Shown in pieces: positions 30,798 through 62,483 of a stretch of 64,000 bases of DNA (the first letter of the stretch is position 1; every line of letters begins with the position of its first letter). A program made the translations under genes and the position numbers. The stretch covers positions 248,001-312,000 of the forward strand of contig JAHREC010000007.1 of NCBI GenBank assembly GCA_020081605.1. Direction: 5' to 3'. Below the pieces are notes generated by a model. The model did no database searches. It had not been told where the DNA came from and was given only the letters and a program-made list of their open reading frames with translations. The DNA is from Albifimbria verrucaria. Taxonomy: Eukaryota > Ascomycota > Sordariomycetes > Hypocreales > Stachybotryaceae.

Positions 30798-33700
30798 TCA
30801 AATTTCAGCTTCCACCTTCAGTAACCTTGGGAAGTTGATCTGCTTGAAGTTCCCCATTCCTCCAATTACAGCCCCCATAGCACTGGATAAACCGTTTTTT
30901 TCTGCCAAGCCAGTCCAGTCCTGTAGAGATAGTTCTTGTATCGCGGTCTTGGTTTCATTACTCAAATAGCCTTGTAGGCCAGACAGCTCGATTTCCACAT
31001 CTCCTGACTCATGAATGTAGACGATTTTATTCTCTTTTCCAAATTCTGGGATGGAGCCCATGACGGCAGAGATGACTTTTCGTGTGACTGTCTCTGGGCT
31101 CACCAGATCAACAGTCCCTTGCCAGTTGGGCGAAATTGGAGCAGCCTTGATCCGACGGGAATAGAGCAACATGTTCTGTAAGACGTCTGCCGTTGGACTA
31201 TCACCAGTCATATCCTGCTCTGGACGAATGATACTGGATGGTCGATGAATAGAGACAGGTAGACCATATCGCTCGTTTACCGCCTCAAGGTATACTTCAT
31301 TGACCCATTTAGTTGCTACATAACCGTAGAGCCCATTGACGGGTGGTGGTGCATCTCGGACGGATACTTCTGCATATGTTTCAGACGTTGTGTACATTGT
31401 TACACCCGTAGTAGAGACATAGTGGAGAGGAATTCGGCGAGGTAAACACAATTTGACCAACTCCTTGGTTGACCCAACGTTGGCCAATCGCAATGACTGG
31501 TAAGTCTTGAGATGCGATACATCAGAACCGTTGTGGATAACAGCATCTGCGGTTTCAAAAATTCGAGAAGCCTCCTCAGGGTCAAGCCCAGCAATGGGGC
31601 CCGAAGATCGCCCTCGTAGCACTCCACTTTTTGATCATCACTAGACAACAGAGCACGGCGTTCTGCTGTCAGGTTCCTGTTGGCAATGCAAATGACTTTA
31701 TCAACCGAGGCACTCTTGTTCAAGGCTTGTAGCAAGTGTTGGCCGAGAAAACCGGTAGCCCCTGTCAATACAACGACACGAGGAGGTGATGATGGGTGAA
31801 CCACAGAGGCCATCGCTGAGATGTCTTCCAATTCTGGCAGTAATGCTGTCTCATCCTCCCAACTAAATGCCTCAGTCGTGGCTACGTCATCGAGTCCCAG
31901 CAGTCCGGCCATACCACGAAGTGTGCTGGCTTGGAAGAGTTGCAGGAGCTGAACAGAAGTCTGGAGATGCTCACGTATCTCTCTTTGCAGCTGAATCAGA
32001 AGCATTGAGCTTCCTCCGACTTGGAAAAATCAGAATCGGCCTCAATGCGATGCAATCCAACGAGGTCAGAGGGAATGACCATTTCCCATAACCGGAGTAG
32101 CTGTGCTTCCGCTTGGGATAGAGAGAGTGACGGCTCCGATGTTTTGAAGACTCTGGACTCAATTGGAATGCGAGAAAGGGCTCGGCGATCAAGCTTTCCT
32201 GCGATAGTACGTGGGAGGGCCTGGATGGGAATTAATGCTGATGGTAGCATCTGACGTGGCAAAGGCAAGTCTTTCAACAGGTCTTTCAAGAATCTTTCGT
32301 TCTCTTTTTCGTCATTGTTCTCAAGGACAACATGAACAACCATGAAAGATACAGCCGAGTCGAGCATTGACCGTTGAGATGCCGCTGCATCTATTATGGA
32401 ACCTGGAGGGGCAGTTCGGATCACGGTTTGTTCAATGTCTCTGAGATCCGTTCTTACACCGTTCAGTTTGACTTCCGTGTCGTTTTCGATACGACCAAGT
32501 AGGACCAAAGTACCGTCTGCGAGCAGGTAACCTAGATCACCCGTTCGATACATGGTGGTCCAACCTGACGTGATGTATTCCGGAGTGGCAAATGGATCAG
32601 GAAGAAACGATGCTCGGGTTTGTTTGTCGTTGTTAAGATAACCGATACCTACCCCAACACCACCGATAACAACTTCGCCTATTTGGCCGACGGGTTGAAT
32701 ATTTTGTTTGTCATCCATAATATAGAAGCACTCGTTTGCAGATGCGCGACCAACTGGGATGGTCGCATAATGGAAAGGTGTCAAGTAGTCAAGCTCGGTC
32801 TTGGTCGAGCCACAGGTTGTCTCGGTGGGCCCGTATACATTGAATAACCGAAGACTGGGTTGGCTCAAGTCTCTAAAAGCCTGTAGTAATGGCTCCGTTA
32901 CTGGCTCTCCGGCAACCAAAGCTAGACCCCATGCTGAAGTACGTAGAGTGTCCCGATGCATTGGTTGCAACCAACTCCTGTATTCGGTCGGTGTTGCGTA
33001 TGTTACCGTCACACCTTTATCCTTGATCGTGTTTGCTATAGCGTTCGCATCTGGTCGTACATGATGTGAAACCATCGCAAGCTTTGCTCCAACGGAGATT
33101 GCTAAAAGAGTTGTGTGATTGAAAGATCAAAACTCCACGCACTTTGCTGGAGAACGACATCATTTTCTCCCAGTTTGTATATAGCAGCGCAATGATCAAA
33201 CTCGTGTTGAATGCTAGAATGTTTCAAAATCACACCCTTCGGAGTTCCCGTTGAGCCACTGGTGTAGAGAATAATGGCCGGTGCATCAGGGCTCGCCGTG
33301 GTTGGAATAGGCTCTGGTGGAGACCCAGACAGCTCTGTGACGTCGATAAAGTCTTCCGGGGAGCTATGTATCCCGGCTGTCATGCCTCTTGTATGGCTAT
33401 GAGTCAGTATAGCGACTGGTCGGCTGTCATCGACGATTAACGCCAATCGTGCCACCGGTGTCGCAGCGTCAAGAGGAACGTACACAGCCCCAATCTTCAG
33501 AATGGCTACGACAGATGCAACCCAATCAACACTCGGTTGCTGAAAAACAGCTACTTTGCAACCATGTACTGCCTTATGGCGCAAGAGTTCCCTAGCAATG
33601 ATATCAATCTTCTCCGAGAGCATGCTGTATGATATGGAAGCTCCATGATCATCTACAACAGCTATACTGTCTGGATGAGAACGAACGACAGTCTCTAACC

Positions 33701-36700
33701 TGTTTACAAGAGTGTCTGACCTAGTGTACTCGAAGGATGGACCTATCGAGAGCATTAGTAAGTCATATCAATGATTCGCAAGTTCGATCCTCACCTCTTC
33801 CAGCGTCCAATGCCTTTTGTATCGCGTGTTGCCGGAAGCTCCATTTTGTGCCAATATGCTTTTCGGGAGCGAAGGCAAACTCCGTTAGTATATCCTCGTA
33901 TCCATTGGCTATAATTATTGCATCATCTTCATTATACAAAGATTCTTGAATATTCAAGGTGATGCCTGTCCCCCTAAGCCGCTGTTTACGACAGTGAAGG
34001 TCATATCATAGGCTAGCCCTGACTGATCCAAGTCTATCAAGTCAGTAGGGCAGCCAATGAAAGTCTTTCCACCTTCAATGTTATCTTCAGAGTAATTGAG
34101 GAAACATTGTGCTAATGGAACATGCGTGGAGTGACGAGGTATTTGGAGTTCGTTCAAGATGAGCTCCCAAGGAATTGTGTTCTCAAGGGCAGAGAGGCTC
34201 TCCTGACGGGCTTCTGCAACAGCTGCGCTGAATGTTTGTCGCCCGTTAGCATTCATTCGCACAGGAAGCGTATTTAGGAAGGGGCCGAGTGCTCCTCGTG
34301 CTGCATCATCGCTACGACCATTGTCTGCTATTGCGATACAGACATCAGCCGTTCCGAGGAACCGGTGAAGGAGAACTTTGAAGGCGGCAAGGTAAAAGTG
34401 AAATGGTGTACATCTGTAATTTCTCGCCACATTTCGGATTTGACTTGCAAGTTCGCTGTTGATGCTAAAGCGAGTTTGGACGGTTGAAGCATAACGCTCG
34501 AGCGGACTACGTTTGAGTGCTCGACTTCGAGTTAAAGGCAAGACTTCAGGAATTGTCGCAAGCTTCTGGCGCCAAAACTCGATCGCTTGTTTCCACTCTC
34601 CATCACTATACTGCTCACGCTGCTTAATTGAATGTTCGAGATGCTGCAGAGGGCTAGAGTTAAACTTAACCCCGTTGTACGCTTGCTCAATGTCTCCCAT
34701 CAGAACATCCACACTAGCCCTGTCGTACATGGCGTGGTGAAGACATATGACGAGGTAATGATCTCCTGGTGAGTAAGATAACAAAACTATTCGCATCGAG
34801 GAGCCCTGACCCAAGTCGAAGACGAAGCGCTTTATAGCTTCATATTCATCGAAGAGTTCTTGCTTGTCCTTAATTTTCTTATGCTCGAGGGTCAAAATCG
34901 ATTTTTCTAGTACACCTTGAGCCAACTCCCTTGGCGTGAGAAAATGCAAGTTCGTAAGGCCTCATGTCGCTCCCCTACAACTCGTACGGCTCGCGCAAGC
35001 TCGGGGACTTGGATCTGTCCTTGAAGGTGCAATAGGACTGAATTGTTCAAGGTGGTCTTATCAGCCAATAATTCGTGAACAAACATGAACATGGACTGCG
35101 AAAATGAAAGCTGGCCTGACTTGATCATCGAATGTTGTGCGTCTGATTCTTGACTTGGCTTAGCCATAACTTCAGGATCAGTGTTGACGGATGATGCGGA
35201 CGATGGCGGTGTATCAACTGATCCAACGTCACTAGAGGAGAAGACTCTTTGATATCTTCATTAGACATGGCAATTGCTTGGTCATTTGACAACAGCTGGG
35301 GAGTTAATTCGCGTGGTGCTGTATCGACAGCCTGATTGATGAGCTCTTGCAAGGCAACTCCTTTGAGAATTTTCAGAGCGGCAATGTTCACTTGGAAGTG
35401 ATTTAAAAACCACGACCGAATACGCACAGCCACGAGAGAGTCTAGGCCTAGTTCGTCGGTTCGAACTGATGGTTTAATTTGGAAGTCCTCGTTGAGCTGA
35501 AGTATGGTGCGCAAATTTTGGAAGAAGGCATCTAACTCAGTGTCAGAATGAATACCAGGGCATATGGTGTATAACTAACCTCTTATGACAACTTCAAGTT
35601 CTTCCGTTGTAGATACGTCTGTTAGTTGTTCTTTGAGAGTAACTACCCCGGCCTGCTTCTCTGAGGAACTGCCTGCATGTTCGACATCCTTGATGGTGAA
35701 GCATGCGAATTGAGGATATGTCTGCCACTGGGGTCTATTCGATGCTGTAGCAGGCAACCGTTCAAGTCCCGTCATGATGTGCCAAGGTTGGCTTGAATCA
35801 GCGGGGCTTGCATTGACAGCTTCCGAAAAAGCATAATGAACATCTATTTCGGAAAGAGGAGAGCCACCTCGATCGAGTATGCCTTGCAACTGAGAGTCAT
35901 TGAGCTCTCGCGTAATGTAGCCGATACCAATAACAGGACCTAGATCTATTACCGAAGCTGCCAGCCCGCGACGACGTCGTTGCTCGGCAAGACCGCTCAT
36001 AAATAGATTAGCGGCTGAGTAATTGGCCTGGCCTGGGTTGCCGACGGTGCCAGCGCTGGATGAAAAGAAAATGAAGAAGTCGAGCGGCCGGTCTTCAAAT
36101 AGGCGATCTAGATTCAAACTTCCATCGACCTTGGGGCGAATGACATTATTCAGTTGCTTCAAAGTCATATTTCTTACAGCAATGTCGTCCAAGACCATGG
36201 CACCCTGGACAACTCCAGCAATACCGGGCATTTCGCTGGTAATTTGCTTGTAGGTTCGTTCAAGCGACTCAAAGTCGGTAATATCACTGATTGGACTGTT
36301 AGCAGACATAAAGTAACCTCAGGGCAATAACTTGCCTGCTCAACAAGCGAACGGCTGCTCCCTTCTCTACCGCGCTTTTTGCCAGCTTTGGCTAACCTTG
36401 GGGTTGCGGCTAGTTATGACCAAATGCTTTGCCCCGCGACCAATCATCCAATCTGCAATGGAAAGACCCAGGTCACCAGATAAACCAACAAGCCAGTACG
36501 TCCGATCAGGGTTAAACGAAGATGTGACTGGTTTCAAGGGAACAGAGAGCGAAGAGCTCTCCCAAGTAAGAATCGAAAATAGCCCGCAAGAGCCTCCTGT
36601 GTTTACAAATTCCTGCGCGTCAATTTCGATTTTGGCTGGGATATCGTCCCAGTTCTCCAGATCTGCTAAGGCTTTTACCACAATTTCATTAATCTGTTCA

Positions 36701-39700
36701 AGATTAACCCGCTCATGAGTTGTTTGGAAAAGGGTAGCAGTATTGATCTTTTGACTTGGGAAGCGAGTCTGGATGAAATCCATTCATTTGAAAGGATTGA
36801 AACATCGTTAGGCTCGGTGAAGTCAATTGAGTGTGCTAAATCGTATGGTAGCACTGCTCTCAAGTGAGATGGGAGCATGTACTCAGTTAGTAGATTCCAC
36901 CCTCGTAGCTTAGCAGTATCTTGAGATGTCGTCGAAAAGAATAGGCTGATACCTCTGATTGAGGCTTCTTGTGCAAGAATTGAAGCTAAGATGATAGGAG
37001 CATTGTGAATGAGGGCACTATCTCCTCTTTGGAAGCCTTTAATCACGCTTGGGATAGCAAGTCGTGATGCAACAAAACTTAAAAACACTGACCCCAGCTG
37101 TGACGAAGCCGAAATGGGGACTGCACGATTCTGCGGTACCTTCGATGAAGAAGTAAGTGCGTCAACCAGAGCAATGTACTGACGCTTGGTTTCACAGCAG
37201 TTTCCAAGAACCAAATAGTAATCCCCAAGAGCTGTAGGGAACTTTCGCACGGTCGAGTAGGTCAATTTCAGATCAATGGCTTGATCAGGTACAGTTCCCG
37301 CAGGCTGTTCTTCGACAATATAGCGGTTATCATTATCCGAAATGGTGACAGTAGAACTATCAATCTTAATTTCTTTAGTTATAGCCCTTTGGCTTGAATT
37401 ATAACGGTCGTTCATTTCTTGAGCCGCTCTGAGACGAGGAATGCGTTGGCGCCCATCGACATCTATGATCACTTCCCACTCGGTTGACCACAGATACGTT
37501 TCTCTTTTCGATTCCGGGATAGAAACTGAGGCCTTGAAGCGCAACAAGCACTCTGATACTACTCTAGGATCAATTCTTTGAGTTGCCTCGAAGTCGACAA
37601 ATTGATACTGAAGGTCGGGCACTTCCCAGAGTACCGACCGTGCGAACCCAACAATCATATTGGAAAATGGATTTTGACTTAAGCGATCCTTGGTGACCCA
37701 CATGATACTTTTCTCTGAATTAAAAAGTTTCTTCAGGCCTTCTAATCGAGCTTCGGAAATATCCTTAAAGACTGGCTGGTCAAGATCGGCAAGTACGAGT
37801 ATGGTGGCGTTAGCACCAATATCGGCTCTTATTAATTCGTCAAGCGTTTTATATCGTGATATATCATCGCAAAGACTGCCAACAAGCTTATAGATGCCAT
37901 CAACAAGACGGGCAACTTGAAACGTGCTTCCTCCAACGATAACAAGTTCTTGAATAGGCGAGCTTTTGGCGAACAAAGATGCTGATGTCAGAAGAGGCTC
38001 TCGCAGATTGCTGACCCAATCATCAACAGCCTGGGAAATCACAACTGAGTTAAGGTATGATAAGTCATCAGTGGTAGGTGTCATTGAATCCACTCCAGAA
38101 AATCCCGTTTTGCGAAGGACTTCGTCCCATTGATCCACTGACACTGATGGGCCCCAAACGCGGCCTTCATCTCTTCCAAGCCACCATCCCGAAAGGCAGC
38201 CAAAAACATGAGTGACGCGAGTAGCGTCAAGGTTCGTGCCCTCAGACATAACTAAGTAGCCCCCAGGCTTTAGCAGTGAACGAACCCTGCGCATTGTCTG
38301 ATCAAGATTCTCCGTTGCATGAACGACAAGTGAAGCTACCACAACATCATACGAGTTCTTTTCGAAGCCTTGTGAAGCAATGTCCTGTTCAAGGTTCAAA
38401 ACTTTGAAGGTCATTTGGCTCTTGTAGTCTGCAAACTCTGCCGCTGCATTACCGAAAAATCCCGCGGAGATATCAGTATATGTGTAAGTACCAAAGTCAT
38501 AACCCTTCAAACGCTGCAGGACTTGTCGAGTGGCGCTCCCAGTTCCGGCGCCGACTTCAAGGATACGAGCGTCCGGATAGCGGCGAGCAATTTGAAGCAC
38601 CGTATCTGCCAGGGCACTAGCAACTTGAACGAAGCCTAAAGCGTGAGCATAGTACTCATCAAGGACTCCAGTCATGAGCAACTGTTCTACCATTGTAGTT
38701 TCGCCCAAAATGGCCCGCGGCATCTGCTCGCCCACTAGGTGAGCAACGCGGACTTCTGAAAGCTCGGAAAATGGTGCAGTAGCGGCATAAATATCCTCAA
38801 GTGTATCACTCAGCCACTCCTTCTTGGCGTACTTGTGTTTTCCTGTTACGCAGAGGTTGTGGGTATATTCAGCAAACTCGAGATATGCGGCATTGAATTT
38901 GTCTTCCCGGCCAGGATGATCAGCAGGAATTGATCTTTCAGCTGACGCAAGTAGAAGCACGATACGCGCTCCAGAATCAAAGCCAGTTCTCGTTCTTTTG
39001 CCGTAGCTTCGTATGTTCCAGGGATATCTGCATTTGGTTCCGCCTCGACCCAGTCCGTATTATAGAATAGCTGCTTATCATCGGCAGGAGTGGCCTCGGA
39101 CATTGGAACGATCCCAAATCCTTGAACCTGAATAGCGGAGTTAGTTCCAGTGACGTCGTGAAATTCAATATCTCCCTGATATCCACGTGCACCTGCTGCA
39201 TCCGTTAAGACCGAGGTGATTGGAACACCATTGGTGGCACTCAAGTGACTACCACACAGCGCAGGATTTATTCTGATTCTTTTGATAGTGGTCGGAAGAT
39301 GCAAGGCACGGAGTCGGCCATCTCTAGGATAACCTAATGCTGCAAAGGTAGCTTGGAAACCAACATCCAAAAGTGCCGGATGTAGGGCGTATTCGTAATC
39401 TCTTTCCGACGGCATGATAACTCCAGAGGCGGCTCCAAATCTCCGCCTCAATTGTGAGAAGGCCCTGAAAGGACCTGTGTATCCATATCCGATCTCTTCC
39501 AAAGCAGAATAGAAAGAGTTTATGGGCACTTCGGTTTTGTCGAGTTCATGACACGAGCTTACAGGGAGCAGATCATGGGTAGGTTGGCCAATATCGATCA
39601 CCAACATTCCACTTGCAACCAGTTGATAACCTTCCTGAGAGCCATTGTTCGTCTCATAAGTGAAACAGGCAGTAATTTGACTAGCCTTTTCTCTGATGAT

Positions 39701-42700
39701 ATTGTTGACTGCAAACTGAGTTTCAATACCAGATCCTTGTCCATCCTCATCAAGGACTGTTGCCTGGTGGATCACAAGATTCTCGATGCTGATCAACTTA
39801 ATGGGCTCATCCGCAGCAACATAAAGGCACTTTCCAGTGCCGTGACAGCGTATCCTGCTGCAGGAAAGATAGTCTGTCCTTGTATCCGATGACCGTGAAC
39901 CCAAGGAATATCCTGCGGCCGTAGAATATGCTTCCACACAAACTGGTGTGCTGAACTAGTAGGGCTGAGGTTGCCAAGTAGTGGATGCATTGCATGTTTC
40001 CTTTGTCGAAGGTTGTGAGAGAGGATAGATTCATGCCAGTATTCTTGGCTGTGGTTCCATTGATACACTGGAAGATTTGGAATGTACCGACGAATGAATG
40101 GCTTATCAGAGCCTCCCTCGTAAGAATCAAAATTGAGGTTGACATTCTCCAGATTCTCCCAAAGGTACCCAAAAGCGCCTGAGAACGCGCGGTTTGCATT
40201 TATGTTGCGTTGAAGCAGACCCGTGTATGGTAAATCTATTTTCGTCTCTGCCAACACTTCTCGTACGGGCCCTTTGAGTGCAGGGTGAGGCCCGACTTCA
40301 ATAGCAGCATCGAAAACATTAGAACTTAGGACTCGCTCGACAGCCTGCATAAACAGTACTGGGGACGTTAGGTTATCAATCCAATATGAAGCATCCGGAC
40401 TCTGCTCCATTATACGGTCTGGATAAACACTGGAGACCCACAGACCATGTGGCTCGGTTTTCTGAACCTGAGCCTCATCTGTTTTCATTGACAACAAATA
40501 CGCGTCAGCGCATGGTTGCATATGATGAGAATGGTACGCCTTGTCAACCTTGAGTCGACGAACGAACTTGTTCTCATCTTCGAATATAGCTGCTATATCA
40601 GTAATCGCATCCTCATCGCCAGATAGAGTGACACTTGAAGGCGAATTGCAGGCAGCAAGGCTGACGCGACCCTCAAATTCAGGATCGCTGCACAGCTCCT
40701 CTGCATCCTCCTGGGAGGTGCCGACAGCGAGCATAGCACCCTTCACGCCATTAGGCCCGCCAGCTAAATGAGAATGAAGACCGCGGTAATAGGCGATGCG
40801 TATCGCCTGGTCTTCTGTCAAATACCCGGTTGCAAATGCCGCAGCTATTTCACCAGATGAATGTCCAACAACAGCGGCAAAGTTTATGCCAATTAATCTG
40901 AGCAATTTAACGAGGACAATCTGAATTGCTGTGCACAGAGGTTGTGATATGAAGGCCTCTCCAACCTTGCTCGATGATGCATCTGCTAGTAGCTCAGATC
41001 TAAGCGTCCATGATGGCCGATATTGCTGCGGAAGCTGTGCCAAGCTTTCATCCAACTCCGATAGAAACCTGGTGGCTTCAGGCAGGGACTCTACCAACTC
41101 AGCTCCCATGCGAGCCCACTGAGCGCCTTGGCCGGTGAAAACGCCTAGTAGCCGGACCTCTTTACCACTATTGACGGCTCTATTTATGTTCAAATCCTTG
41201 CCGAGGAGTTCCTTAAGACTCGTTTGTAGTGTTGATATAGATGATCCAGGAAGTGAGACCCTGAAAGACAGCTGCGAGCGACGTTCACGCAGTGTATACG
41301 AGAGATGAGAAGGATTCGTGTCTGGGTTAAGCTCCAGATACTCGAGGTAGGCAGCGAGGCTAGCGGCCAGGGATTGTTCTGATTGTGCCGAAAAGATAAA
41401 TGGAGGAATGAAGCCTAAGTCGCTTGTTCCAGTGGTACCATCCTCAGATGAGTGCGTATCAAAACTTTCGAGAATTACGTGCGCATTTGTACCACCGAAA
41501 CCAAAGCTATTTACACTGGCACGGCAGGGTTGACCAGGTATTTTGGGCCACGGCGTAGGTTCTTGAGGGATCAAGACGTTCTTATAAAACGGCTCCACGC
41601 TGGGGTTTAGGCGATCTAGCAGCAAGTTAGGGGAACATAAGAGTGTTTCAAAGCTTTCGCAGCCTTAAGTAAGCCGGCGATACCAGCAGTAGCCTCGGTA
41701 TGTCCTATGACAGTTTTGATGGAGCCAACATATAGAGGTTCGCCCTCGTGTGGTGAAGAAGATTCGTCTTTTCCAAAGAAGGCCAACTGAATGGCCTCTG
41801 CTTCGACTGGGTCACCAGCTTGTGTGCCAGTTCCGTGCGCCTCGAAGTAGTGGCATCGGTCCTGTTTATTCTGAGGATCGAGACCAGCTCGAGCGTATGT
41901 GCTGCGAATCAATGCCGCCTGGGCAGTGGCGCTGGGCATTGTGATCCCATGACTGCGGCCATCTTGGTTAACACCAATTTCACGAATAACGCATTCAATA
42001 TTATCACCGTCGGCCAGCGCAGCACTGAGAGTCTTTAAAACGATCGCTGCCACGCCATCGCCTCTTGCATAGCCGTTGGCTCCAGCATCCCACATACGGG
42101 ATCGTGAGTCTGGAGACAGCATTCTGAGGTTGCTATGATAGACATAGGGCTCCGGTCCTAGGAGAAGATTACTGCCAGCAGCAACAGCAACAGGGATGTG
42201 ACCAGCCCGTAACGCTTGCACGGCCTGGCTCACAGCGACAAGACTGGACGAACATGCGGTGTCAATGGTCATGGAAGGTCCGTGCCAGTCGAAGAAATAG
42301 GAAATACGATTTGACGCGATGCTCCGAGCGTTTCCTTATACATTTCAGTAATTCTATCGATTCAAAAGTTGAGTGTAGCATCTCACCTGTTGAATGATAT
42401 GTTGGCATTTTTGAAGGTCTCGAAATTGTAACGCCTCATAATCTCCATACATGAGACCAACATAAACGCCTGTGTCTGAGCCTTTGAGACCTTCCATGGT
42501 CAAACCTGCTGATTCGAGTCCTTCGTATACGGTTTCTAGAAGCAACCGCTGCTGTGGGTCCATAGCCGCAGCTTCTGCAGCCTGTATACTGAAGAAGGGT
42601 GCGTCAAATTGTGCTACATTCTGGTTCAAAATGTACGAGTGTCGGACATTGCTGTGTCCTGGGAACTGGCCATCTTCATGGTACCAGCTGGAGGCGTTGA

Positions 42701-58846: not shown

Positions 58847-61800
58847 ATGTTTACTGGAGAAAACATATATAAACCCGTGCGTGTATGCGAAAACACTACA
58901 GATTATTTTCCTTGGGAAGTAGACACTACAAAAGTCCACAACCTTTTACAAACAATGGGAATTTATGAAATCCTTCAAGGAGCACAGCGGGGCTTACCCT
59001 TACCAGCCGTCTTTGGCCAGGTATTGACAATCGTGCTCAAGAAACACGACGAGGCAACACAGGATGCTATTCTTAAAATCATTCGAGACTTGGCGGAGCA
59101 TGCAGAGAAACACGCAGAGTGTGGCCTCGTTGCAGCTTTCGCACCCAGCCTTTGGGGTACTTGGAACGAGCGTACCATCCCTATTAAGACGGATGTCCTT
59201 GGCCGTGGTATCAAATTTTGCAACACTGGTGGTGATGTTCTCCTGTATATCAAGACACCTAGCAAGGAATTAGCGGCCAAGCTGGTTTCAACTGTTTGGG
59301 ATCGCTTGCAGGCTATTTCCAAGAACATCGACGCCGTCGCAGCGGGTAAACGGAAGGACATTCGCGTTCCAGGTGGGCGCTACAACGAGGGCATCACAAA
59401 TCCAAACGACCCAGTCAGTTTAGTGGAGGACATACTCATCAGAGACCCTTGTTATGCCGGTGCTAGCTTTGCTTTTACTCAGAAATTCGAATTCGATTGG
59501 CCTCGTATCTCGATTCAAAGCGCAAGCTCAGAGGACGAAATGATTGGCCGCAATCCAGACGGTGCCTCTCTTCCTCAGCATGCCACTCATTCGCATATCC
59601 ATCGCGCACATGTCAAAGACAAGGATCAGAACCAAAGAAAGATTTTGCGCCAAGCCCTGTCCTTTGGGAAAAGTGCAGGTCATGCTGGTCGTGAAAAGGG
59701 ACTCATATTTGTTGCATTCTGCAATGATCAACCACGGTTTGAGAAAATCTTGAACAATCTGCTGGGCGACAAGCCTGAGAACCCTCTAGACAGGCTCATG
59801 GATGTAGTCGAAGCTACCAGTGGCGGCTACTGGTACGTCCCTGCAGCAAAAGAACTAGGCATACCGGGTGTGAGCGGACGAGATGCCATTCCTGAAGAGC
59901 CTCACTGGAGCGTCCGAAGTCCTAATGGCTATCTTTTCTACAATTCCCAAGATTGGCTCCATCAGATGTCTGCAGGCCGTTACATTGGAGGTGACCCTCC
60001 GAGTGATCGTGTTCTAAGCTTGATGGCAAGAACGTTTTCACATTGGCGTGATGGATGGATGGATAGGCGAAGTTTTCCACGGCTACCTCACTTGACGGAT
60101 TTCTTTTTGAAAGACGAAGAAAAGAAGGCAATCATGCAGGAACCAATTCCCGTTCGCAAAGCCATGGCGAACTTCAAAACGCTGGAGCTAACATTATCGG
60201 CACCGGATTCCAAAACAGCGAAATACAATGGCCTCCTCCGTATCCTGCCAAATGAACTCATTGTGGGAGTGATTCCCGACTTTACTCTCGGACGTGGCAA
60301 GGAAGTTGTGCCGTACCTGAGCAAGGAAGAAACAGTTACGGCCTGGCTGGACAAGACGCTTAACGAATGGGCCGCGATGGGCCACGTTGTGCCCGATTTC
60401 GAAAAGTTGGTCAAACAAGGCCTAGGCGATATCAGCGCAGATTTACAAAATAAAATGGACTGCGCAAAGAAGGCCAATGACACGAAATCGACTTTCTTCC
60501 GCTCTTGTTTGATTTCTATTGAAGCAGTGCAGCGCTATCTCAGCAACTGGGCACTCATTGCAGAGGCTGCGGCAGCACAGGCCACAGAAGCAGACGACAA
60601 GACGAATATGAGCAATGTCGCCCAGCGCCTAGCATACCTCGTACACAACCCCCACGAGACTTTCACGATGCCGTTCAACTTGTCTTTTCAATGCATTGTT
60701 GTCTACATCTTGTCGGCGAGTTGACTGCTTTGGGCCGTTTGGATCAGATCCTCTGGCCATTCTTGGAAAAAGATCTGGCAGCAGGAACAATTTCAATGGA
60801 ATATGCGCAGGATATCATCGATTGTCTATGGATGAAAATTGGAGAGAACGCATTCGTAAATCGCGCTTTTATCTATGATTATGTCTCCTATGGAACGACG
60901 TCTGTTTGTGGTGTTGGTGGTAACTTCCCTCAAGGAGGCGGTATCAATCAGTGGGTCCAACAAATTACTGTTGGAGGCTACAAGGCCTTGGATGGAGATA
61001 CGGGTGAAGGGGTGCCAATCCACTCACCTTGTTGTGTCTGAAAGCGGCGCGCCGTATTCCTGTGAATGCGCCGACCCTTTCACTCAGGGTCTATAAGGAT
61101 ATGCCGGAAGAGTTCCTGGATGAAGCTGCCAAAGCAATCCTGGCAGGCGGAGCGCAGCCAATTCTCTTCAACGATGACAAGTTGTGTGAGGGATTGTACC
61201 GCTCTGGTAAGGGGCTTGTCAGTCGGGCATGGTCACGTAACTACGCCGCAGACGGCTGCTATGAGCCCATGTTTGCAGGCGCTTCCGAATTCACTTTCAA
61301 CAATGTAGCACCTATGCTTGCTCTCGAGCAGACACTCAACCAAGGAGCAACGTACGGGGCAGCAGGGCCTGAAAGCTTACGGGGTTTAAAACAGACATTT
61401 CGCTCACCTCCCGCCGCCAAAATCAAGACGTTCAAAATGCTGCAGGAAGTATTCTTGGAGCAGCTCGAATGGCTTGTTATCCAGTGTTACAACGTAATGC
61501 TTGAGAATTACGGCAATCTCGCAGATGTCTGTCCCAGTCCGCTACTCTCTGTATTCATCGACGGTTGCTTACAAAGTGGCCATGATCTTACCAATGGCGG
61601 AGCACGTTTCCATATCATGGCACCGCTGTGTGTAGGGGTTTCGAACACAATTGACTCTTTATTTGCAATACAGAAGCTGGTCTACGACCCGGACACGGCT
61701 GTGACAACTCTGGCTGACTTGGCGGATTGCCTAATCAACGACTGGGGCTTCAATATGATTGAGCCATTTGAGGACCGCCATCTCGGACCTGCTACTACAG

Positions 61801-62483
61801 GTCAATACGCGGTTCGGTATAAACAACTGAGAGAGTTGGCATTGGCCTTACCCAAGTGGGGAAGTGGTGATGAGGAAGTCAACAAATTAGGCGACTGGTT
61901 CATCGAGAATATGGTTCGACTTTGCGTCGATAAGATCAACTCTCCTGCCTTAAAACCGAAGCTGGATGAGATTGCTAAGGTACATGGGGAAAGCCTGAAG
62001 TTTGTGATTACCCCGGGCATTGGAACTTTTGAAGGTTACGTCGGCGACGGTGCCCCATGTGGAGCCTCAGCGGACGGCCGTCGCAACGGGATGCCCATTG
62101 CGTCTGACCTTTCACCGACACCGGCTGCGCAAGACCTGCCTCCAAACCCTGCTTTCCGAAACATTTACCAAGCCATGAAAAGTTGTCAATCCGACGCGGT
62201 AACATATGGCCTCTCTAATGCGTCCCCGGTTGATATGAATATCGACGAGAAATTTCCGCTAGAAGACTTGAAAAAGTTTGTCAAAGCATATGCCAACGGC
62301 GATGTTGGTGGGAATTTGGTCACTCTTACATGCGCAGATCTGAAGACATACCAGGAAGCGGACAAAGATCCGGAGAAGTATAACCTGGTGCGAGTTAGGA
62401 TGGGAGGTTGGACAGAATTTTACGCCACCATGTTCCCGGCACATCAGGATCAACACCAGCGTAGACAGTATTTCACTCCTTAG
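58847..62483 (+). CDS. DyP-type peroxidase / glycyl radical enzyme fusion protein
   Basis: An intronless gene of about 1,210 residues. Residues 45-340 form a dye-decolorizing peroxidase domain: the GxxDG-like motif reads GRYNEG (E181 where most DyPs have Asp), the proximal heme histidine is H250 in SHIHRAH, and a distal arginine R268 follows 18 residues later, then GLIFVAFCNDQPRFEKI. After a linker (HWSVRSPNGYLFYNSQDWLHQM) a full glycyl-radical-enzyme domain starts near residue 420: ALGRLDQILWPF, YDYVSYGTTSVCGVGGN, NPLTLLCLKAARRIPVNAPT, SLRVYKDMPEEFL, the thiyl-radical loop DGCYEP (Cys codon 61257-61259, Glu 61263-61265), DGCLQSGHDLTNGGARF, and the C-terminal glycyl motif RVRMGGWTEF (Gly codon 62406-62408), 24 residues from the end. 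Residues 1-625 are one unbroken ORF, so the fusion is real. Two breaks near 60690 (TTTT) and 61013 (GGGG) need one base each. The GCxE loop resembles dehydratase/lyase GREs, not pyruvate formate-lyase. Substrate unknown. Confidence 0.85.

Follow-up and report, generated by a model that had tools for sequence, protein, structure and literature searches.

A family of glycyl radical enzymes fused to or encoded beside a DyP-type peroxidase, mostly without canonical activases

The window, the 64,000-nucleotide stretch of an Albifimbria verrucaria contig analysed here, carries a gene for a DyP-type heme peroxidase domain followed by a complete PFL-like glycyl radical enzyme (GRE) domain. GREs normally need a radical-SAM activase, and the glycyl radical is cut by oxygen. 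Across the family of this gene, the GRE is paired with DyP, the catalytic residues of both halves are conserved, and canonical activases are few. The family is likely a GRE variant whose partner is a peroxidase, and we partly infer, with a probability of roughly 0.45, that DyP, as a dedicated partner, stands in for the activase and probably uses peroxide to generate the radical.

Results

The DyP-GRE gene of Albifimbria

Profile searches of the pieces between 58847 and 62483 found a DyP domain and then a complete PFL-like GRE domain. The earlier note had described one unbroken reading frame; the assembly instead splits the gene into three overlapping ORFs, each in its own frame (58847-60724, an open stretch at 60523-61038, and 61029-62483), with frame changes at 60649-60661 and 61009-61014 (+ strand), each with a short homopolymer run inside. 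The whole gene spans 58955-62483 on the + strand; its first ORF opens at 58847, and, judging by the alignment, in which many orthologues start at 58955, translation probably begins there. A relative from a JGI source, P0001, is intact (1212 aa, 98% identity) and aligned with zero gaps to the 1212-position X-marked read-through of the window gene, from which it differs at only 19 residues, not counting the two X and three residues next to the first frame change. Because this intact protein matches the read-through gap-free, the fusion is real, its breaks being local, and the window copy, given an intact relative at such identity, reflects either assembly indels or a fresh pseudogene. The two frame changes would suit a pseudogene in the window strain; this reading is made very unlikely by the few differences from P0001 and by the position of both frame changes at homopolymer runs, as expected of assembly indels. 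A nearby PKS-NRPS-like gene is likewise cut inside domains, which favours assembly indels, introns being possible in that gene. It occupies 30798-42272 of the window on the − strand as ten overlapping or neighbouring ORFs and encodes KS, AT, DH, methyltransferase, KR, condensation, AMP-binding and reductase domains. The genome assembly comprises 48.4 Mb in 41 contigs.

Introns behind the frame changes were ruled out, since P0001 is gap-free against the read-through and the Chaetomium cochliodes orthologue is listed without introns in the available part of PMC5041501. Chance overlap of the ORFs was ruled out by the domain matches and by the 341 homologues found with the read-through query. Two separate genes in Albifimbria are unsupported, as both Pfam domains are held by 114 of the best 120 of these homologues, the other six being shorter.

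Conservation of the two halves

The DyP domain lies at 58967-59863 (+ strand), an extent transferred from the DyP fold in the predicted structure of the relative P0029 (residues 4-302). The window piece matches PF20628 (E 5.1e-22) and is above the cut-off of TIGR01413, and the intact P0001 is above cut-off for both. The proximal heme-ligand His (59594-59596, + strand) is kept in 107 of the 108 full-length fused relatives listed, with a gap in the remaining one, and the distal Arg (59648-59650, + strand) in all 108. At the distal acid position (59387-59389, + strand) the window has Glu; among the 108 it is Asp in 103, Glu in 4 and Asn in 1. Glu in place of the usual distal Asp was seen in the window gene, P0001, P0003, P0008 and P0106.

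The GRE domain is complete over the three frames at 59981-62480 (+ strand; transferred from P0029 residues 342-1167), and its pieces match PF02901 with E values of 1.8e-14, 1.4e-16 and 2.4e-61. The thiyl loop D-G-C-Y-E-P (61251-61268, + strand) contains the catalytic Cys (61257-61259) and Glu, and the second Gly (62406-62408) of the glycyl motif R-M-G-G-W (62397-62411, + strand) corresponds in the alignment to the radical Gly of GREs with solved structures; the aligned counterparts of DGCYEP and RMGGW in the structures of diol dehydratase and CutC are GCVEP and RVAGY. The DyP domain and the glycyl-radical domain with a thiyl Cys-Tyr-Glu loop and RMGGW, as claimed in the earlier note, are thus present by profiles and alignment. 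Intact members (P0001, P0029, L025, L018 and P0113) were far below all curated NCBIfam GRE cut-offs tested (PFL, PFL2-3, CutC, HypD, sulfopropanediol dehydratase, HPAD and indoleacetate decarboxylase), the best reaching 261 against 678 bits.

When motif loss in orthologues was looked for, the Cys-x-Glu and glycyl motifs were found to be retained in all 222 full-length relatives listed (108/108 fused, 114/114 unfused). This retention speaks for a role of the Gly and weighs against the reading in which the glycyl radical is unused, DyP making a thiyl or Trp radical in the GRE fold at each turnover and RMGGW being otherwise employed. We regard this reading as unlikely, although it would sidestep the oxygen problem, RMGGW departs from the RVxGY type of solved relatives, and the RMGGW loop is of low model confidence in the P0029 model, where both the DyP and the GRE folds are complete.

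Distribution and phylogeny

A search for the fused architecture across fungi and bacteria found DyP-GRE proteins in both. The closest named match among those listed is a Paramyrothecium foliicola protein (86% identity), and proteins of Lindgomyces, Chaetomium and Xylaria are among the homologues listed. The hosts among the matches listed include many Sordariomycetes, several lichen fungi, betaproteobacteria and Chloroflexota, and the DyP-linked GRE clade occurs in genera known as aerobes. A genome scan with the exact peptides GNF[PS]QGGG or VRVRMGGW yielded 30 loci (L004-L033), whose hosts include Pseudomonas cichorii, Corallococcus, Actinoalloteichus, Ensifer, Sphingomonas, Hymenobacter, Haloferula and a Planctomycetota MAG; such a scan passes over members lacking these peptides, and it partly preselects the motif in the 30 loci. 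The 240 listed proteins from the homologue searches are free of this exact-peptide selection. An earlier genome scan with a window piece as the query gave no match, and phages gave a single weak GRE match without the DyP part. A tree of the GRE domain, for which the unfused members were chosen as the root, placed 38 fungal sequences in a single clade (support 0.857) next to 11 proteobacterial tips, among which one Massilia protein appears twice. The tree fits a single transfer into fungi, at modest support.

The earlier note was unaware of any comparable system described from ascomycetes; such fusions are in print. In its available part, PMC5041501 (2016) describes a fused DyP-B/PFL gene of C. 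cochliodes with an N-terminal DyP and a C-terminal PFL, reports its induction by H2O2 (3.3-fold) and peracetic acid (18.5-fold), and proposes a putative PFL activase for it. The same text describes further fusions in prokaryotic and eukaryotic genomes, including bacterial relatives, proposes transfer of the fusion between proteobacteria and ascomycetes, and cites a 2014 encyclopedia entry for prokaryotic fusions. A second DyP-PFL fusion, Xylaria grammica g1956, appears in the available part of PMC8469222 (2021). The fusion architecture is already known, and the window gene belongs to the published family as a frame-broken copy: the relatives and P0001 carry both parts on one polypeptide, as in the DyP-PFL family of PMC5041501, and the window gene does so only across two frame changes.

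Pairing of GRE with DyP

Nineteen of the 30 loci (L004-L022) match the fused query including its DyP sequence. Both Pfam domains lie on one ORF in L012, L014, L015, L017-L022 and P0029, the single-polypeptide protein of the Andreprevotia lacus locus L004; the fused gene of Kordia (L016) is interrupted by stops. L023-L030 match the GRE part only, and L031-L033 only its C-terminal end. At all loci with an unfused GRE and downstream DNA (10/10), a DyP gene lies directly downstream: the next downstream gene has both DyP Pfam domains in L023-L028, L030, L031 and L032, and on a Hymenobacter plasmid (L046) GRE is followed by DyP, the order being taken from the annotation. As the contigs of L031 and L032 hold the GRE end only, the unfused state of both is deduced; the L029 contig stops at the GRE, and L031 may hold the remainder of that gene. 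L033 is a fragment; since a 610-residue frame on another contig of its genome runs from DyP into the beginning of a PFL-like domain, its gene is probably fused. The unfused GRE-then-DyP clade would be a split form, in which DyP takes the place often occupied by an activase. A search of open-licence PMC found no account of unfused DyP-GRE neighbours, the pairing rule or the missing activases.

Other genes adjoin some of these loci. The GRE-DyP pair of the Hymenobacter plasmid (L046 2971-14125) is accompanied by a PLD-like gene and a HAD-like gene, the latter matching PADLOC PDC-S34 (E 6.8e-18); trypsin-like and STAND/NACHT-like genes lie nearby, an arrangement known from candidate defence or conflict loci. 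PLD genes near the pair were also seen in L025, L028 and L030. Reading the locus as a defence system was set aside: some PADLOC models match the Hymenobacter cassette, but none matched the GRE/DyP proteins of L004, L025 (twice), L028 and L047 or six neighbours taken for HAD-like. A PF04185 phosphoesterase gene adjoins the fused gene in L013 (11439-12974) and L017 (269-1765) and, by similarity, in L016 (6080-7711). A cytidine-deaminase-like gene follows the DyP gene in L028 (11959-12807) and its relative L026 (11981-12847). On an Asticcacaulis plasmid (L047 5301-10316), the gene immediately before a long DyP-GRE fusion is sulfatase-modifying-factor-like (PF03781).

Activases beside the gene and genome-wide

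The activase signature GCx3Cx[WYF]CxN was found in none of 32 DyP-linked loci (the 30 scan loci and two plasmids, several of them short), compared with nine of 12 ordinary GRE plasmid loci, controls which were hand-picked from 101 matching plasmid records and are therefore not a random sample. All nine signature-positive controls have an annotated activase next to or near the GRE; the three negative ones are two pflB loci without an annotated activase and one unannotated record. No annotated activase lies within 8 kb of the plasmid-borne pflB of Azospirillum (L055) and Ilyobacter (L057). Since three of 12 ordinary controls lack the signature, adjacency alone is weak evidence, and since a neighbouring activase is common rather than universal, its absence leaves membership of the GRE fold family possible. 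Two looser forms of the signature each matched 9/12 controls, and one (L026) or three (L009, L011, L046) of the 32 DyP-linked loci. CX3CX2C in all frames was discarded as too loose (11/12 controls, 16/32 DyP-linked loci), and an earlier pass over selected ORFs of 27 loci gave no match.

A genome-wide profile search covered 29 carrier genomes, with L031 left out as belonging to the same MAG as L029. TIGR02494 was above cut-off in none of the 29 and matched four at E 1e-8; TIGR02493 was above cut-off in two and matched 11 at E 1e-8, leaving 18 without any match at that limit. The two carriers above the TIGR02493 cut-off are Andreprevotia, each with an ordinary PFL and an adjacent pflA, which thus serves as a positive control inside the carrier genomes. 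The radical-SAM control LipA was detected in 25 of 29 carriers, including 15 of the 18 without a TIGR02493 match, and was absent from four MAGs. PFL-like matches in 27/29 carriers, sorted by position and ORF length, were the loci described, a second DyP-linked gene (G021) or fragments. Two of the sub-threshold TIGR02493 matches in bacteria were identified and set aside, L042 as NrdG2 beside an NrdD-like ORF and L043 as an AmmeMemoRadiSam enzyme. TIGR02495 at a loose limit matched 29 of 30 genomes, above cut-off in three; it catches generic radical-SAM proteins and therefore has no discriminating power. Canonical radical-SAM activases are absent beside the gene and in most carriers examined.

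A radical-SAM gene of the Albifimbria genome

The genome of the window holds one activase-like radical-SAM gene, L035, which is unlinked to the DyP-GRE gene and below cut-off, and one further weak TIGR02495 match; a TIGR02494 match in the fungus (L034) resembled complex I ferredoxin by inspection and was dismissed as noise. Databases call the relatives of L035 'pyruvate formate lyase activating enzyme', and L035 could act on the GRE. Its presence fits the alternative that DyP protects or senses, removing peroxide near the oxygen-sensitive glycyl radical or acting on substrate or product, the radical coming from an unlinked or unrecognised radical-SAM activator, perhaps of the L035 type in fungi. 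An activase of such a type is proposed in the available part of PMC5041501, the peroxide induction of the C. cochliodes gene published there suits a protective role too, and nearly every carrier encodes radical-SAM proteins of a generic type. However, among the L035 matches listed (best 120), 48 of 57 named genera lie outside the 28 genera named for the fusion, in a comparison of names among matches listed and not of whole genomes; L035-type genes are widespread and therefore look general rather than dedicated. L035 also had no match in the 29 bacterial carrier genomes, in a search that is weak as it had no positive control, and a TIGR02493 match at 1e-8 is absent from 18 of the 29 carriers, as given above. 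On balance, a protective or sensing DyP appears possible but somewhat unlikely.

Discussion

The earlier note had suggested that the peroxidase may generate the radical, which had no support when first proposed; the pairing with DyP, fused or unfused, and the few canonical activases now point in that direction. If DyP replaces the activase, the DyP half would bind heme and form a ferryl or protein radical with H2O2. The oxidising equivalent would be passed, perhaps via Trp/Tyr, to the RMGGW loop or straight to the catalytic Cys, and the thiyl radical would then drive an elimination-type (dehydratase or lyase) reaction on a small substrate, in which the Glu of GC[YF]E would be the base. More tentatively still, the family may represent an activase-free GRE, in which heme peroxidase and hydrogen peroxide give the protein radical, in aerobic bacteria and moulds.

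Several points speak against the peroxide route. An oxidant-driven mechanism must survive the cutting of the glycyl radical by oxygen, and the window DyP carries Glu where Asp is usual. The unlinked activase-like L035 is present, a gene of the kind proposed as an activase in the available part of PMC5041501, and an unrecognised radical-SAM protein could serve the GRE, generic matches being found in 29/30 genomes.

A conserved GRE clade tied to a heme peroxidase, mostly without canonical activases, would challenge the rules that GREs need an activase and are killed by oxygen. If DyP is only protective, the family would still show how GRE chemistry survives in air. Activation is directly testable with single-polypeptide members such as that of Andreprevotia lacus (P0029) and with the unfused clade, where DyP can be added or omitted.

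In prostaglandin synthase, a peroxidase site generates the protein radical that a second site uses. DyP-GRE may work like it, by analogy only and with no membership claimed, and a similar analogy is class I ribonucleotide reductase, in which an oxidant-driven metal site gives a radical used elsewhere. DyP-GRE would thus stand to PFL-type GREs as class I stands to class III ribonucleotide reductase. Compared with diol/glycerol dehydratase and choline TMA-lyase (CutC), the GRE half shows ~20% identity, has RMGGW in place of RVAGY, and has a DyP partner where they have an adjacent activase. Unlike the type-B-like bacterial DyP peroxidases YfeX, DtpB and DypB, the DyP described here is fused to or encoded beside a GRE. 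The closest known systems are the ascomycete fusions of C. cochliodes (PMC5041501) and X. grammica (g1956; PMC8469222), which, in the available parts of both sources, have the same N-terminal DyP and C-terminal PFL-like GRE, whereas the Albifimbria copy is frame-broken; where PMC5041501 proposes a PFL activase, DyP is proposed here in the activase's place.
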